Assembly: GCA_030648515.1 (NCBI GenBank) | Contig: JAUSHK010000003.1 | Location: forward strand, 1-44,709 | Direction: 5' to 3' | DNA: 44,709 bases | From: Candidatus Jorgensenbacteria bacterium | GTDB lineage: Bacteria > Patescibacteriota > Minisyncoccia > UBA6257 > GWB1-50-10 | Shown: piece after piece, positions 32,405 to 38,620 of the stretch | Layout of the letters: each line of letters begins with the position of its first letter | Numbering within the stretch: the first letter of the stretch is position 1 | The notes under the pieces: generated by a model | What the model was told of the DNA's origin: nothing | Databases searched by the model: none | Seen by the model: only the letters and a program-made list of their open reading frames with translations | Program-made: the position numbers and the translations under genes

Positions 32405-35400
32405 CTACACTTTTCTTGCCCCAATCCAAAGCGGAGTGTTTTCAAATTTTGTTTCAATTTCAACTGAGAATTTCTGCTCTCGGCGCGGAACGATATCTTT
32501 TGCATTAACTTCTTTGCAAATAATGCTCTCATATTTACGCACGACGCCCTCAAGTTCGCCCTGCGTAGAAACCATAACAATGATTTTATCCTTCGGCTCC
32601 AACTTCGCGCTCTGACGCAAATCCTGAATCATGCGGACAAATTCGCGCACAAGCCCCTCCTCGCGCAATTCGATTGTTATATTCGTATTAAGCGCGATTT
32701 CATCCTTGAGTTTTTTATCAAGCGAAACTTTTTTAACATTCACCTCGTCTTTCAAAATCTCCATTAATCCTCTCTGTTTCCATAATTCGCTATCCGCGAT
32801 TTTGAGTTCAGCGAGTGGCTGACGGACTTTAACTCCGACCCCTGCCCGCTTTGCAAGCGCAATACTGGATAATCTGCGTACTTCTGCCATATCGTGAAGC
32901 AATTTTTTGTCAGAAGCGCCGCCAGCCGACCAGTTGTCCAAATGAACTGATTCTGTATTCCCGTGATTAAATGATTTATAGAGCGTGTCGGCAAAAAACG
33001 GCACAAATGGCGCGAGCAATTTTGAGAGCTCTATCAAAACAAACCCAAGCGTCTGCGATGCGCTTTCATAATCCTTTATACTGTCAGGATGCTGAAATCT
33101 CCTGCGGGACCTGCGAATGTACCACCGAGATACGTCTTCCACAAAATTTTGGACAACGCGCGCAGCATCTCCTATCTCATAGGCATCAAGCAGTTTTGTT
33201 GTTTTAGAAACCGTTTCATTCAATCTCGCCACAACCCACGCATCGAGTATATTTTTTGATTTCGGAACGCAGGTTAATTTCGAATTCTCTTTGCCATACG
33301 TTTTCCAAAAAACGAACGAGTTGTATGCGAGAAGAATGAACTGGCGCATTACTTTGCCGAAATCCGCATCATCAATCCGCTTCGGCTCGCCCGGCGGATT
33401 CATTGTGTAGAAATGCCACCGCACTGCGTCAATGCCGTATTTTTTCGCCATCTCCCATGGGTCAATAATATTTCCCTTTGACTTTGACATTTTCTGCCCA
33501 TTTTTATCCAAGATATGCCCCAAAGAAATGACGTTGCGGTATGGCTCGCCGCGGCCCATGAGCACTGATATCGCGAGAAGCGTGTAAAACCATCCGCGCG
33601 TCTGGTCCACCGCCTCGCAAATATACTCGGCAGGAAAATCCAGTGAGTCCTTGTTCTCAAATGGCCAGTGCGCCTGTGAAAATGGCATTGATCCGGCGTC
33701 AAACCATACGTCAAGAACTTCGGGAATTCTTTTCATAGTCCCTTTTTTGCATTTCGGGCATTTGAATTTCACGGCGTCAATGTACGGCTTATGCAAATCA
33801 CCAGCGCCAGAGACATTCCGCGGAAGCGGCAAAAATTCGCCGTCCCGCACTTCGGCATTCGCAAGAAAATCAGTGTACGTAGCCTTTTTATGCTCAACTG
33901 CCTCTTCATTCGTCCATCCGTTCAAAATACTTTCCCCCATCCAAATCGGATACTCGTGACTCACGAGTAAAATATTTTTACCAGAATATTTCTTTTCCAA
34001 ATCCAGAATGAGATTATAAATGCGCGCGCGCACGTCCGTGAGTGTTTCGCCGTTTGGCGCAGGCTTCGTAAACTTTTCAATATCGGACGTGTAATAATTT
34101 CCGTAAAATTTCTGGCCCCGCCCGTGAAAATCACCGATATTGATTTCGCGTAATCTCTTATCAAGAACGATTTTTGTTTTGAGGGCCTTACTAAAAATCT
34201 GCGCTGTTTCCTTCGCGCGCGTGATATCCGAACTCACTATATAATCTATTTTTTGTTCTTTCGCGAGTTTCTTCGCCGCGCGTTCAGCCTGCGTAACGCC
34301 CTTGAGCGTTAGGTGGTGTTTCAGGTCTGGCCACGCGCTGCAAATTTTAAGCTTATTATTCTGCGCTTCGCCGTGCCGCACAAAAAAATAGTGGTTTCGT
34401 TTTTTCTTCGTCTCCTGGAGCGAAACAAGTTCCTGAATGCTTCCGACGGCATGCGTTTCCCCGCACGCATCGCATTCCCAGATCGGCAACGGCGTCCCCC
34501 AGTATCGCTCTCGCGAAATCGCCCAGTCTTTCGCGTCTCTAAGCCACTCTCCAAATCTTCCTTCCCGTAAATGCCCAGGAATCCATTTTATATTTTTATT
34601 TGAAGAAATTAGTTCATTTTTAAGTTTACTCATCGCAATGAACCATGCCCCACGGGCATAATAAATAAGCGGAGAATCACATCGCCAGCAATGCGGATAT
34701 TCGTGGGCATATTTCTCTGTTTTAAAAAAATTCCCTTGTTTTTTGAGATATTCAAAAATAAGCGCGTCCGTCTCTAGTGTCTTTACTTTTTTCCCAGCAA
34801 GTTCCTCAACTACGCCAATTCTCCTATCGCTCTCTGAAAGAAATCTCCCGTCTATTCCAACTGTGTGAAATTGTAGAAGTTCTTCCTTCTTTCCAAGATT
34901 GTAATCGTCTTCACCATACATTGGCGCGATATGCACCACACCAGTGCCGTCATTTGTAGTGACAAAATCTGCAGGATATATCCTATATGACCTGTCATTT
35001 TTAAGCGCAGGGACATCAAACAATGGTTTATACGATGCTCCAATAAGGTCTTTTCCTTTTAGTTCCCCTCCATACAAAGTTACCTTTTCTCCGGTAAATA
35101 TTTTCACCAACAAGTGAGTCGCAACGATATATAAACCATCCGTTTCCAGTACAACTGAGTAGCTAATATCTTTACCAACAGCGAGCGCGACATTCCCAGG
35201 CAGCGTCCATGGCGTTGTCGTCCACGCGAGAATGTAGGTTTTATCATCGGTTGTGAAGCCGCCAATCTTTTGTCCAATCTTCAATTTGAATTTGATATAA
35301 ACGGATGTGTCTTCCGTCTCTTTATATCCCTGCGCGACTTCGTGCGATGAGAGCACTGTTCCGCATCGCGTGCACCACGGTACAACCTTGTGCCCTTTAT

Positions 35401-35917
35401 AAATCAGTTTTTTCTTCCAGATTTCTTTTAAAAGATACCACACCGATTCCATATATCGGTTGTCATAGGTGATGTACGGATGTTTAAGGTCAAGCCAAAA
35501 CCCCATGCGCTCAGTAAGTTTTTCCCATTCGTCTTTGTATTTCCACACCGATTCTTTGCATTTTGCGTTGAACTCCGCGATGCCATATTGTTCAACTTCT
35601 TTTTTTGACTTCAGCCCAAGCGCTTTTTCAACCTCAATTTCAACAGGAAGCCCGTGCGTATCCCATCCGCTCTTGCGCGGCACGTAGTATCCGCGCATCG
35701 TTTTATACCGCAAAATAATATCCTTAAAGGCGCGCGCGAGAACGTGATGAAGCCCAGGGTGGCCGTTTGCAGTCGGCGGCCCTTCGTAAAACACGAACTT
35801 CTTCCCGCTGGTTCGGTTCTTCTCAAGCGACTTCTCAAAAATATTATTCGTTTTCCAAAACTCAAGAACTTTCTCTTCTAGCTCAGGAAGCGAAAACTGC
35901 TTTAGGTTACGCAGCAT
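32405..35917 (-). CDS. ileS: Isoleucyl-tRNA synthetase with an inserted histidine-phosphatase domain
   Basis: It charges tRNA-Ile. The IleRS parts are clear: EGPPTANGHPGLHH (HIGH region, about 45-58), WTTTPWTLPGNVALAVG in the editing domain, RYWGTPLPIWECDACGETH, EVLDVWFDAGSMPFSQAH, DQTRGWFYTLL, KMSKS at 809-813, and a C-terminal anticodon-binding region. At 1170 residues it is longer than usual. Residues ~501-706 form a complete histidine phosphatase fold: FFVRHGEAQNN with H515, SSDITRAKETAQIF, LREINIGDFHGR, NGETLTDVRARI and ILLVSHEYPIW. The insert lies between GSIQELVSLQ and DLHKPYID, inside one uninterrupted frame. Histidine phosphatases hydrolyse small phosphoesters; its role here is unknown. 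Confidence 0.95.
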   Translation of the reverse strand: MLRNLKQFSLPELEEKVLEFWKTNNIFEKSLEKNRTSGKKFVFYEGPPTANGHPGLHHVLARAFKDIILRYKTMRGYYVPRKSGWDTHGLPVEIEVEKALGLKSKKEVEQYGIAEFNAKCKESVWKYKDEWEKLTERMGFWLDLKHPYITYDNRYMESVWYLLKEIWKKKLIYKGHKVVPWCTRCGTVLSSHEVAQGYKETEDTSVYIKFKLKIGQKIGGFTTDDKTYILAWTTTPWTLPGNVALAVGKDISYSVVLETDGLYIVATHLLVKIFTGEKVTLYGGELKGKDLIGASYKPLFDVPALKNDRSYRIYPADFVTTNDGTGVVHIAPMYGEDDYNLGKKEELLQFHTVGIDGRFLSESDRRIGVVEELAGKKVKTLETDALIFEYLKKQGNFFKTEKYAHEYPHCWRCDSPLIYYARGAWFIAMSKLKNELISSNKNIKWIPGHLREGRFGEWLRDAKDWAISRERYWGTPLPIWECDACGETHAVGSIQELVSLQETKKKRNHYFFVRHGEAQNNKLKICSAWPDLKHHLTLKGVTQAERAAKKLAKEQKIDYIVSSDITRAKETAQIFSKALKTKIVLDKRLREINIGDFHGRGQKFYGNYYTSDIEKFTKPAPNGETLTDVRARIYNLILDLEKKYSGKNILLVSHEYPIWMGESILNGWTNEEAVEHKKATYTDFLANAEVRDGEFLPLPRNVSGAGDLHKPYIDAVKFKCPKCKKGTMKRIPEVLDVWFDAGSMPFSQAHWPFENKDSLDFPAEYICEAVDQTRGWFYTLLAISVLMGRGEPYRNVISLGHILDKNGQKMSKSKGNIIDPWEMAKKYGIDAVRWHFYTMNPPGEPKRIDDADFGKVMRQFILLAYNSFVFWKTYGKENSKLTCVPKSKNILDAWVVARLNETVSKTTKLLDAYEIGDAARVVQNFVEDVSRWYIRRSRRRFQHPDSIKDYESASQTLGFVLIELSKLLAPFVPFFADTLYKSFNHGNTESVHLDNWSAGGASDKKLLHDMAEVRRLSSIALAKRAGVGVKVRQPLAELKIADSELWKQRGLMEILKDEVNVKKVSLDKKLKDEIALNTNITIELREEGLVREFVRMIQDLRQSAKLEPKDKIIVMVSTQGELEGVVRKYESIICKEVNAKDIVPRREQKFSVEIETKFENTPLWIGARKV

Positions 35918-36015: not shown

Positions 36016-36954
36016 ATGTTAATTGCAGCGACTCTCATCGCTATCTGCGCGCTGTTTTATCTTTTGTGTAAATCGGCCGATGTTGTAGTAACGCAAATAC
36101 GTTCGCTTGGCCACAGATTCGGCGTTCCACTCTCTTTTCTTGGAATAGTTCTGGGACTACTAACGACTCTCCCCGAACTTTCGATAGGAGTTAACGCGAT
36201 AATAGAAAATATCCCGTCTATATCTATTGGAAATCTTCTTGGAGGGATAATGGTGATTTTCGGCCTCATTTTTGGAGGAAGCATCATATTAAACCGGGAA
36301 ATAGCGACCGATGGAAAAATTTGGCACATTCTTCCATTTTTTGCTTACATACTTGTCGCAATGATCATGGGTCTCGACGGGAAATTCAGTGAAACCGACG
36401 GAATAATACTAATGGTCATTTATCTCGGCATCCTGTTCTCGCTCTATGAGAAGTATCACAAACAAGAACTCCTTAAGCACATGCCGACGATTCATCATCA
36501 TCGAATCAGCAAACACATAGTTTACATAATTCTCGGCGTTACCGCCGTTGTCGTACTAGCAAAGGCAATAATTTCGCTCTCCGCGGAATTACTGAAAGCT
36601 TTTGATGTTTCGATATTTGTAATAGGACTCATCGTGTTTTCAATAGGCACAAACTTACCGGAAATCATTGTAACCATACGCTCATGGCGCAGGCACATTA
36701 AAGAGCTTTCGACGAGTAGCCTGATAGGATCAGCAATAGCAAATCCGTTCATGATAGGCCTTCTCGCGCTCCTCCATCCGATATATATCACGGTAGATTT
36801 TTCCTATTACCTCACAATGGCTTTTATCGCGCTGCTTTTTTCAGCTTTTCTTGTGTTCTATAAGACCAACCGCCAGCTTACCGCTCGCGAAGGCGTAATT
36901 TTAATCGCGATTTATGTCTTTTTTATAATCTCGCAGTTTCTATACGCGTTCTAA
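36016..36954 (+). CDS. Ca2+:cation antiporter (CaCA) family protein
   Basis: It is a 312-residue membrane exchanger with about ten helices. The two inverted alpha repeats are visible: GLLTTLPELSIGVNAIIENI with SISIGNLLGG, and SIGTNLPEIIVTIRSW with SSLIGSAIANPF. The conserved acidic residue in each TLPE/NLPE is kept. A cytosolic His-rich loop (HMPTIHHHRISKH, about 155-168) between the halves may bind metal. Family members exchange Ca2+ for Na+ or H+. It is convergent with argS, with only 3 bp between the stop codons and no terminator. Confidence 0.88.
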   Translation: MLIAATLIAICALFYLLCKSADVVVTQIRSLGHRFGVPLSFLGIVLGLLTTLPELSIGVNAIIENIPSISIGNLLGGIMVIFGLIFGGSIILNREIATDGKIWHILPFFAYILVAMIMGLDGKFSETDGIILMVIYLGILFSLYEKYHKQELLKHMPTIHHHRISKHIVYIILGVTAVVVLAKAIISLSAELLKAFDVSIFVIGLIVFSIGTNLPEIIVTIRSWRRHIKELSTSSLIGSAIANPFMIGLLALLHPIYITVDFSYYLTMAFIALLFSAFLVFYKTNRQLTAREGVILIAIYVFFIISQFLYAF

Positions 36955-36957
36955 CTG

Positions 36958-38583
36958 TCACATTTTTTTCGGCGCGGAGATGCCGAGTATTTTAAAAAGA
37001 TTCTGAAAAACGATGATTGATGCGGAAACTAAAACTGCGCGCGCCTGCGCGATGTTTTTTGCTTCGCCAGCCACGCGTTCTTTTTCGTAAAAATTATGAA
37101 ACGCTTTTGCGAGCTCTGATGCGTACTTTGTAATAGGATGGATTTTATAATCCTTTGCCGAGTCCGCGATGACTTCAGGAAACCGCGCGAGCTCGCGAAT
37201 AAGCTTTGTATCAACGTCGGTCTGAAGCGCATCAAGAGAAGCTTTTGCTGAAGTTTTTATTTTTGATTTCTTGAGAATACTCAGCGCTCTTACAAGCGCG
37301 TACTGGATGTAAAAAACGGGATTTTTCTGAGACCGCTCCTTCGCGAGCTTTAGATCAAAATCCATATGCGACTCCGGTGTTGTCATAAGAAAGAAAAACC
37401 GTGCAGCATCGCGCCCGACCTCGCTTATAAGTTCCTCGAATGTAATAAACTTCCCTTTCCGCTTAGACATCTTCGTCTCTTTCCCATCCGAAACGAGCCG
37501 TATCGTCTGCGTCACAATAACACGTGAGTCAAGTCCAAAAATTTTTGCTACCGCCTGTATGCGCGCAACATATCCGTAGTGGTCCGGGCCTAAAATATTT
37601 ATTTTCGCGTCAAACTTTCGTTCTTTTGTTTCAAGATAGTGTCCGGCATCGGCAAGAAAATATGTCGGCTCTCCGCCCTGCTTCACGAGCACCCTATCTT
37701 TGTCATCGCCGAAATCTTTTGTACGAAGCCAAACCGCGCCATCTTGTTCGTACACCCGCCCGCCCTTTTTAAACACCGCAAGCGCTTTTTTAACATATCC
37801 CTTTTTATGAATATTCCTGTCTTCGGATGTGTACCTATCAAACTTAATATGTGCCCCTTTTTCAATAGTATTGCGAGTGCCTCGCAAAAAATCTTTTGCC
37901 GCGCGCTTTCCGATCTCCATCGGATTGTTTTTGTGCTTTAAGACGAAAGATTTATTTTTCTTCGCCCACTCTCTTACATACTCGCCCTTATAAAATTCTT
38001 CCTCGGTCGGAATAATACCTAGCGACGCAATGATTGATTTTCCAAAAGTTAAAATCTGGTTTCCTGTGTCGTTTACATAATATTCTCGCTCTACCGCATT
38101 ACCAGCGGCTTCCAAGATATTTGAGAGTGCGTCGCCAAAAAACCCTCCCCTTCCATTCGCAAGCGTGAGCGGCCCCGTTGGATTTGCCGAAATGTATTCA
38201 ACTTGGATTTTTTTCTTTTTTTTGCTTTTTACAATTCCATAGTTCTTTTTCTCTTTCAAAATAATTTGTAACTCACTGGCGAGCGCATTCTGCGACAGCC
38301 ACATATTCAAAAATCCCGGGGTTACTGCTTCAACTCGCTCAAACAATTCTGCTTGCCCGAACAGTCGCTTTGCGACTGTTTTAGGGGACGCGGACTCTAG
38401 AAGTTTTGATGCAAGCTTCTCTGCCTCCTCCATCGGCGAAACCCCTTTTTGCTTTGCGAGCTTGAAGGCAACATTCGTGCTGTAATGCCCTTGCGTATCG
38501 TTCTCCGGCACGGAAAGTGAAACATCCGTGCCTTTAGGAATAAGACCCTCAATTTTCGCGGTTATTTTTTCTCTAAGTGTCAT
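36958..38583 (-). CDS. argS: Arginyl-tRNA synthetase with a degenerate HIGH motif
   Basis: This class I enzyme charges tRNA-Arg. The core is clear: VEYISANPTGPLTLANGRGG, EREYYVNDTGNQILTFGKS, GPDHYGYVARIQA, KETKMSKRKGKFITFEEL (KMSK at 371-374) and a C-terminal DALR-type anticodon-binding domain (YIQYALVRALSI onward). The HIGH signature, normally GPLHVGHxRGA, reads GPLTLANGRGG: both histidines are replaced (T140 and N143). ATG 38583 (MTLREK) is chosen because the promoter TTGATT-17-TATACT ends 8 bp before it. That promoter lies in one arm of an inverted repeat. Length, 541 residues, is normal. Confidence 0.94.
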   Translation of the reverse strand: MTLREKITAKIEGLIPKGTDVSLSVPENDTQGHYSTNVAFKLAKQKGVSPMEEAEKLASKLLESASPKTVAKRLFGQAELFERVEAVTPGFLNMWLSQNALASELQIILKEKKNYGIVKSKKKKKIQVEYISANPTGPLTLANGRGGFFGDALSNILEAAGNAVEREYYVNDTGNQILTFGKSIIASLGIIPTEEEFYKGEYVREWAKKNKSFVLKHKNNPMEIGKRAAKDFLRGTRNTIEKGAHIKFDRYTSEDRNIHKKGYVKKALAVFKKGGRVYEQDGAVWLRTKDFGDDKDRVLVKQGGEPTYFLADAGHYLETKERKFDAKINILGPDHYGYVARIQAVAKIFGLDSRVIVTQTIRLVSDGKETKMSKRKGKFITFEELISEVGRDAARFFFLMTTPESHMDFDLKLAKERSQKNPVFYIQYALVRALSILKKSKIKTSAKASLDALQTDVDTKLIRELARFPEVIADSAKDYKIHPITKYASELAKAFHNFYEKERVAGEAKNIAQARAVLVSASIIVFQNLFKILGISAPKKM

Positions 38584-38591
38584 TTTATAGC

Positions 38592-38620
38592 AGTATACCC
38601 CCACACCAATAGTGAATCAA
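38592..38620 (-). promoter_or_regulatory. Promoter of argS (leaderless)
   Basis: TTGATT (38620-38615), 17 bp, TATACT (38597-38592), then 8 bp to ATG 38583. Confidence 0.7.

Follow-up and report, generated by a model that had tools for sequence, protein, structure and literature searches.

Few enzymes are as conserved as the aminoacyl-tRNA synthetases, and the genomes of CPR bacteria are minimal. Why, then, does the isoleucyl-tRNA synthetase (IleRS) encoded in the window, the 44,709-nucleotide stretch of Candidatus Jorgensenbacteria DNA analysed here, contain a second enzyme? A sequence-only reading had proposed that a complete RHG-type phosphatase lies in frame within this synthetase, and the proposal holds. 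A single frame matches the IleRS model TIGR00392 at 867.2 bits (curated cut-off 621.4) and the model of histidine phosphatase superfamily branch 1, PF00300, at 120.1 bits (gathering cut-off 21.7). The interval originally given for the insert, 33799-34417, corresponds to residues ~501-706, and the RHG, SSDITRAKETA, LRE and VSHE motifs are as reported (Table 1).

Table 1. Features of the ileS gene and of the histidine phosphatase (HP) domain inserted in its product
Feature	Position in window	Strand	Basis
ileS, type-2-like isoleucyl-tRNA synthetase with inserted histidine phosphatase	32405..35917	(-)	single 1170-aa ORF
IleRS residues 1-504: N-terminal part of catalytic domain, CP1 editing domain, first half of Cys4 knuckle	34406..35917	(-)	TIGR00392 stretch 6-523; P. 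megaterium IleRS2 9-475 aligned
CDAC (C482, C485), first half of knuckle, N-side of insert	34463..34474	(-)	at least 90% conserved, 59 aligned relatives
Inserted histidine phosphatase domain, residues ~505-700	33818..34405	(-)	PF00300 at 511-672, E 1.2e-34; AF2 domain model
R514-H515 of RHG motif, H515 being the nucleophile His	34373..34378	(-)	117/117 inserted domains
R567, second catalytic Arg (SSDITRAKETA)	34217..34219	(-)	117/117 inserted domains
E591, putative proton donor (LREIN)	34145..34147	(-)	E in 110, D in 7 (n=117 inserted domains)
H654, second catalytic His (VSHE)	33956..33958	(-)	117/117 inserted domains
IleRS residues 701-1170 and stop: second half of Cys4 knuckle, KMSKS, anticodon-binding domain, DUF5915	32405..33817	(-)	Pfam/TIGR00392 matches, IleRS2 alignment
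CPKC (C720, C723), second half of knuckle, C-side of insert	33749..33760	(-)	at least 90% conserved, 59 aligned relatives

The host keeps the class I signature and the CP1 editing residues (H58, K809-K812, T233-T235 and D338, in columns conserved across 59 aligned relatives), and TIGR00392 finds no second ileS in the genome above its curated cut-off. The insert is bounded by GSIQEL (492) on its N-side and DLHKPYID (707) on its C-side, and thus falls between the two CxxC pairs of a putative zinc knuckle. The AlphaFold2 (AF2) model of the whole protein has a pTM of 0.86 and a mean pLDDT of 91.9; pLDDT exceeds 90 over most of the insert. The neighbourhood contains an argS-like gene at 36958-38604 (-) and, between it and ileS on the opposite strand, a membrane-protein gene at 36016-36954 (+) that by eye resembles a sodium/calcium exchanger.

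The HP domain carries the complete branch-1 catalytic set (R514, H515, R567, E591, H654). Members of the superfamily transfer phosphate via a phosphohistidine. Modelled by itself, the domain reaches a pLDDT of 93.7 and a pTM of 0.90, and structure comparison places it nearest to the phosphoserine phosphatase PspA (4ij6, Z 23.9), Rv2419c (23.4) and PhoE (22.0); profile search agrees on the nearest solved relatives. All are metabolic phosphatases: PspA, Rv2419c, PhoE, CobC and a riboflavin-pathway phosphatase. We infer that the insert is a small-molecule phosphatase of the PhoE/PspA/CobC type. The window protein falls below the subfamily cut-offs for dPGM (NF038349, 88.6 vs 225 bits), the alpha-ribazole phosphatase CobC (TIGR03162, 71.1 vs 162.9), PspA (NF045917, 61.6 vs 350) and the phosphohistidine phosphatase SixA (TIGR00249, 34.9 vs 74.5). 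Since no subfamily model is reached, the substrate cannot be named by homology.

The position of the insert invites the idea of an RNA-end phosphatase, which would repair or sense phosphorylated 3' or 5' ends of tRNA near the acceptor-binding face. The Cys4 knuckle belongs to the catalytic half of the enzyme, and this region is thought to lie close to the acceptor end in class Ia synthetases. Profile and structure searches, however, returned no RNA-specific HP relative, and we consider such a role very improbable.

Whether the domain still works as an enzyme can be judged from its relatives. The 118 aligned inserted pieces represent 117 HP domains, one domain being in two pieces. HP-profile columns 8, 9, 57, 61, 118, 126 and 148 show no variation across them (R, H, S, R, E, R and H, respectively), and column 85 always holds an acid, E in 110 domains and D in 7. 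The domains are otherwise divergent, with a median column identity of 0.38 and a mean pairwise identity of 32%. Second and third copies within one synthetase are as catalytically intact as first ones. The sole domain with an internal deletion (L129) keeps the catalytic positions in its two pieces. The sequence-only reading had noted that H515 and the second His are retained, and had named degenerate catalytic residues or a chimeric assembly as grounds for abandoning the idea. Both residues are present in every inserted domain. A degenerate remnant is ruled out by the intact R-H / R / E(D) / H set in 117/117 domains, and a chimeric assembly by the dozens of independent genomes that share the architecture. 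This pattern is that of an active enzyme rather than a remnant, and the domain is probably catalytically active. Retention of the catalytic residues, together with the exclusion of a chimera, argues that it is a selected phosphatase linked to IleRS. A purely structural insert, a scaffold or stabiliser in which catalysis is irrelevant, would suit a loop position in a large host. This reading is already disfavoured, and we rate it as the least credible of all, given that the catalytic residues are complete in so many divergent copies and that the HP also exists free-standing.

A survey of CPR IleRS, as the sequence-only reading had advised, shows that the insert is recurrent. TIGR00392 was searched in the 142 genomes of the window's class, about 120 of which have a readable ileS: 37 have insert-free IleRS frames (~940-1064 aa), ~83 have frames of insert size, and the remainder are truncated or unclear. 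Among 60 large class frames that were read, 59 carry an HP at the same site (IleRS profile column ~495), with the catalytic residues conserved. The remaining frame (L087, G397:C5:58500-64500) has no HP and instead contains a NUDIX domain in the CP1 region, at IleRS residues 225-343. Across the phylum (192 genomes) IleRS is mostly insert-free, and HP was found in several other families. Most Peregrinibacteria (family f83) have two HP domains in tandem. One IleRS (L021) has two HP domains at two sites, and the 1572-aa IleRS of a relative (L036, G243) has three, at 531-662, 725-898 and 1045-1183, all with catalytic residues. Four valyl-tRNA synthetases (ValRS; L011, L012, L016, L034) also contain HP. 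Of these, two are ~1280 aa long: L011 (G229) combines HAD_2 (229-342), Ser_hydrolase (631-772) and HP (819-1002), and L016 (G373) combines Ser_hydrolase and HP. Among the named records that bear it are Yanofskybacteria, Nomurabacteria, Paceibacterota, Kerfeldbacteria and Peregrinibacteria. Among the matches listed for 66 further loci (L179-L244, mostly Bacillota and Chloroflexi), HP was found only in the Peregrinibacteria record L180, whose HP sequences are identical to those of G252; the non-CPR IleRS among the best 80 matches have no HP. In two loci (L032 in G181, and L172) ileS occupies two open frames broken near the CP1 region, with HP intact; the break is either real or a sequencing error. 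End-to-end HP fusions in CPR (L038, L039, L040, L041, L045) join HP to proteins that by eye are a 2-hydroxyacid dehydrogenase-like protein, a DedA-like membrane protein, an MFS-like transporter and a Nudix protein.

The same genome counts bear on pyrophosphate. PPi is a product of IleRS, and an inserted enzyme that removed it, standing in for inorganic pyrophosphatase, would pull charging forward. Soluble family I pyrophosphatase (PF00719) is found in only 30/142 class genomes, as such a role might require. Its frequency, however, differs little between insert-free (10/37) and insert-bearing (~13/83) genomes, a count that covers family I, and the window's genome has both the insert and a soluble pyrophosphatase. 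The normal substrates of HP enzymes are, moreover, phosphomonoesters. The PF00719 counts give no sign that the insert replaces soluble pyrophosphatase, and removal of PPi seems to us a most unlikely purpose.

The insert has a complex history. On the IleRS core tree the insert state has to change 21 times; with ~21 gains or losses, the HP activity must be dispensable in many lineages. In the HP tree the two copies of Peregrinibacteria lie apart from each other, and those of ValRS are spread over up to three parts, from which several independent acquisitions of HP are likely. A careful HP tree, which is unrooted, moderately supported and not fully settled in its bootstrap, interleaves free HP genes with the inserts at three distinct points, with three changes forced by well-supported branches. 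This interleaving implies that free and inserted states have interconverted. Together with the short loops in some insert-free IleRS, and within a tree that has no root, it would suggest excisions.

The free genes provide a second line of evidence. The HP subfamily was searched against 40 genomes of the class in which no HP insert had been recognised. In six insert-free genomes from three families (G413, G392, G490 and G453 of f166; G274 of f20; G349 of f25), a free HP gene directly precedes ileS on the same strand. These HPs belong to the insert clade and their frames mostly overlap, or else abut, that of ileS. In G349 (L281) the gene order is argS-like gene, HP, ileS, the argS assignment being judged from sequence. 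Two f24 genomes have a more distant HP 1-2 kb upstream of ileS, again in the same orientation. A six-fold adjacency of HP and ileS is far beyond chance where genomes hold several hundred genes, even if counted as three families. The presence of the free gene directly upstream of ileS in relatives would link the phosphatase activity to isoleucine charging; it also offers a clean genetic handle.

The main rival explanation is that the phosphatase is a passenger. It would be an ordinary metabolic enzyme, acting on phosphoserine, a phosphosugar or a cofactor precursor, to which charging is irrelevant and which is carried along in the permissive loop of an essential protein that is always expressed, or in the operon of that protein. 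We hold this to be possible, at a minority share of the probability. The nearest solved relatives of the domain are what a passenger would lead one to expect, as is the presence of unrelated enzymes (NUDIX, HAD_2, Ser_hydrolase) in the same kind of host. The HP fold also appears, from the sequences, to be a promiscuous partner that is fused end-to-end to assorted, unrelated CPR proteins, and this counts against a role in charging, as does the dispensability of the activity in many lineages. On the other hand, every HP-bearing frame of more than 800 aa that was read is an IleRS or a ValRS. Passive riding does not predict the apparent repeated, independent gain by these two synthetases, although permissiveness of the loop could explain it.

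We propose that the window protein is a bifunctional IleRS-phosphatase whose second activity is linked to isoleucine charging and clears a phosphorylated small molecule at the synthetase, a form of housecleaning. We put the probability of this reading at roughly one half. An active PhoE/PspA/CobC-type phosphatase would sit within the Cys4 knuckle, in a surface loop of the synthetase, and would act by a phosphohistidine mechanism with His515 as nucleophile. Its substrate would be a small molecule that arises at the synthetase or is met there, and that would lose a phosphate; candidates are by-products such as an adenylate or a dinucleotide, and inhibitors that resemble an adenylate. The sequence-only reading had put forward, as conjectural roles, hydrolysis of aminoacyl-adenylate by-products, of an alarmone or of an amino-acid antibiotic, or a coupling of phosphate metabolism to charging. 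In relatives with the free gene, the same phosphatase would be made separately, from directly upstream of ileS. Housecleaning or detoxification is the leading guess for three reasons: (i) the link to IleRS; (ii) the other enzymes inserted in CPR Ile/ValRS are also hydrolases (NUDIX in the IleRS L087, HAD_2 and Ser_hydrolase in the ValRS L011); (iii) a family of IleRS with an added GNAT domain exists (NF040702). More speculatively, Patescibacteria may have repeatedly recruited HP as an extra quality-control or housecleaning site of IleRS, and of ValRS, acting on a phosphorylated or adenylylated charging product or inhibitor; this wider claim is tentative and we would not favour it as it stands. 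That so many minimal genomes conserve an additional phosphatase in their IleRS implies a selected function. An HP inside or directly beside IleRS suggests that tRNA charging is coupled to a chemical step not yet described and, if the wider claim is true, IleRS would catalyse a third reaction in addition to aminoacylation and editing.

Comparison with known systems places these observations in context. The synthetase frame as a whole resembles type 2 bacterial or Thermus-like IleRS (P. megaterium IleRS2, 8c8u; T. thermophilus, 1ile), with 42-45% identity over 804-935 residues and shared signature and editing motifs; where P. megaterium IleRS2 has a loop of ~9 residues (475-484), the window protein has ~200 residues of phosphatase. 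That phosphatase shares its fold (Z 20-24, rmsd ~2.2-2.5 over 181-184 residues) and catalytic set with PhoE/PspA/CobC-type enzymes (1h2e, 4ij5, 6e4b), which are free-standing, whereas the window HP is inserted and falls below every subfamily cut-off. NCBI already recognises a bacterial IleRS with an added enzyme domain (NCBIfam NF040702, ileS_w_GNAT), but the addition there is an acetyltransferase; the window protein scores 320 against the 1999 bits required and its Pfam scan contains no GNAT domain. Mycobacterial MutT1 likewise joins an RHG histidine phosphatase to a nucleotide-related enzyme, by end-to-end fusion to Nudix rather than by insertion in IleRS, and its HP motif is described as of unknown activity (PMC11784022). 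Searches of open-licence PMC papers turned up no account of an IleRS that contains an HP or phosphoglycerate-mutase-like domain, or of CPR synthetase fusions. Enzyme insertions into synthetases are already known; a phosphatase in IleRS and ValRS, its multiplicity and its free counterpart adjoining ileS appear to be new.
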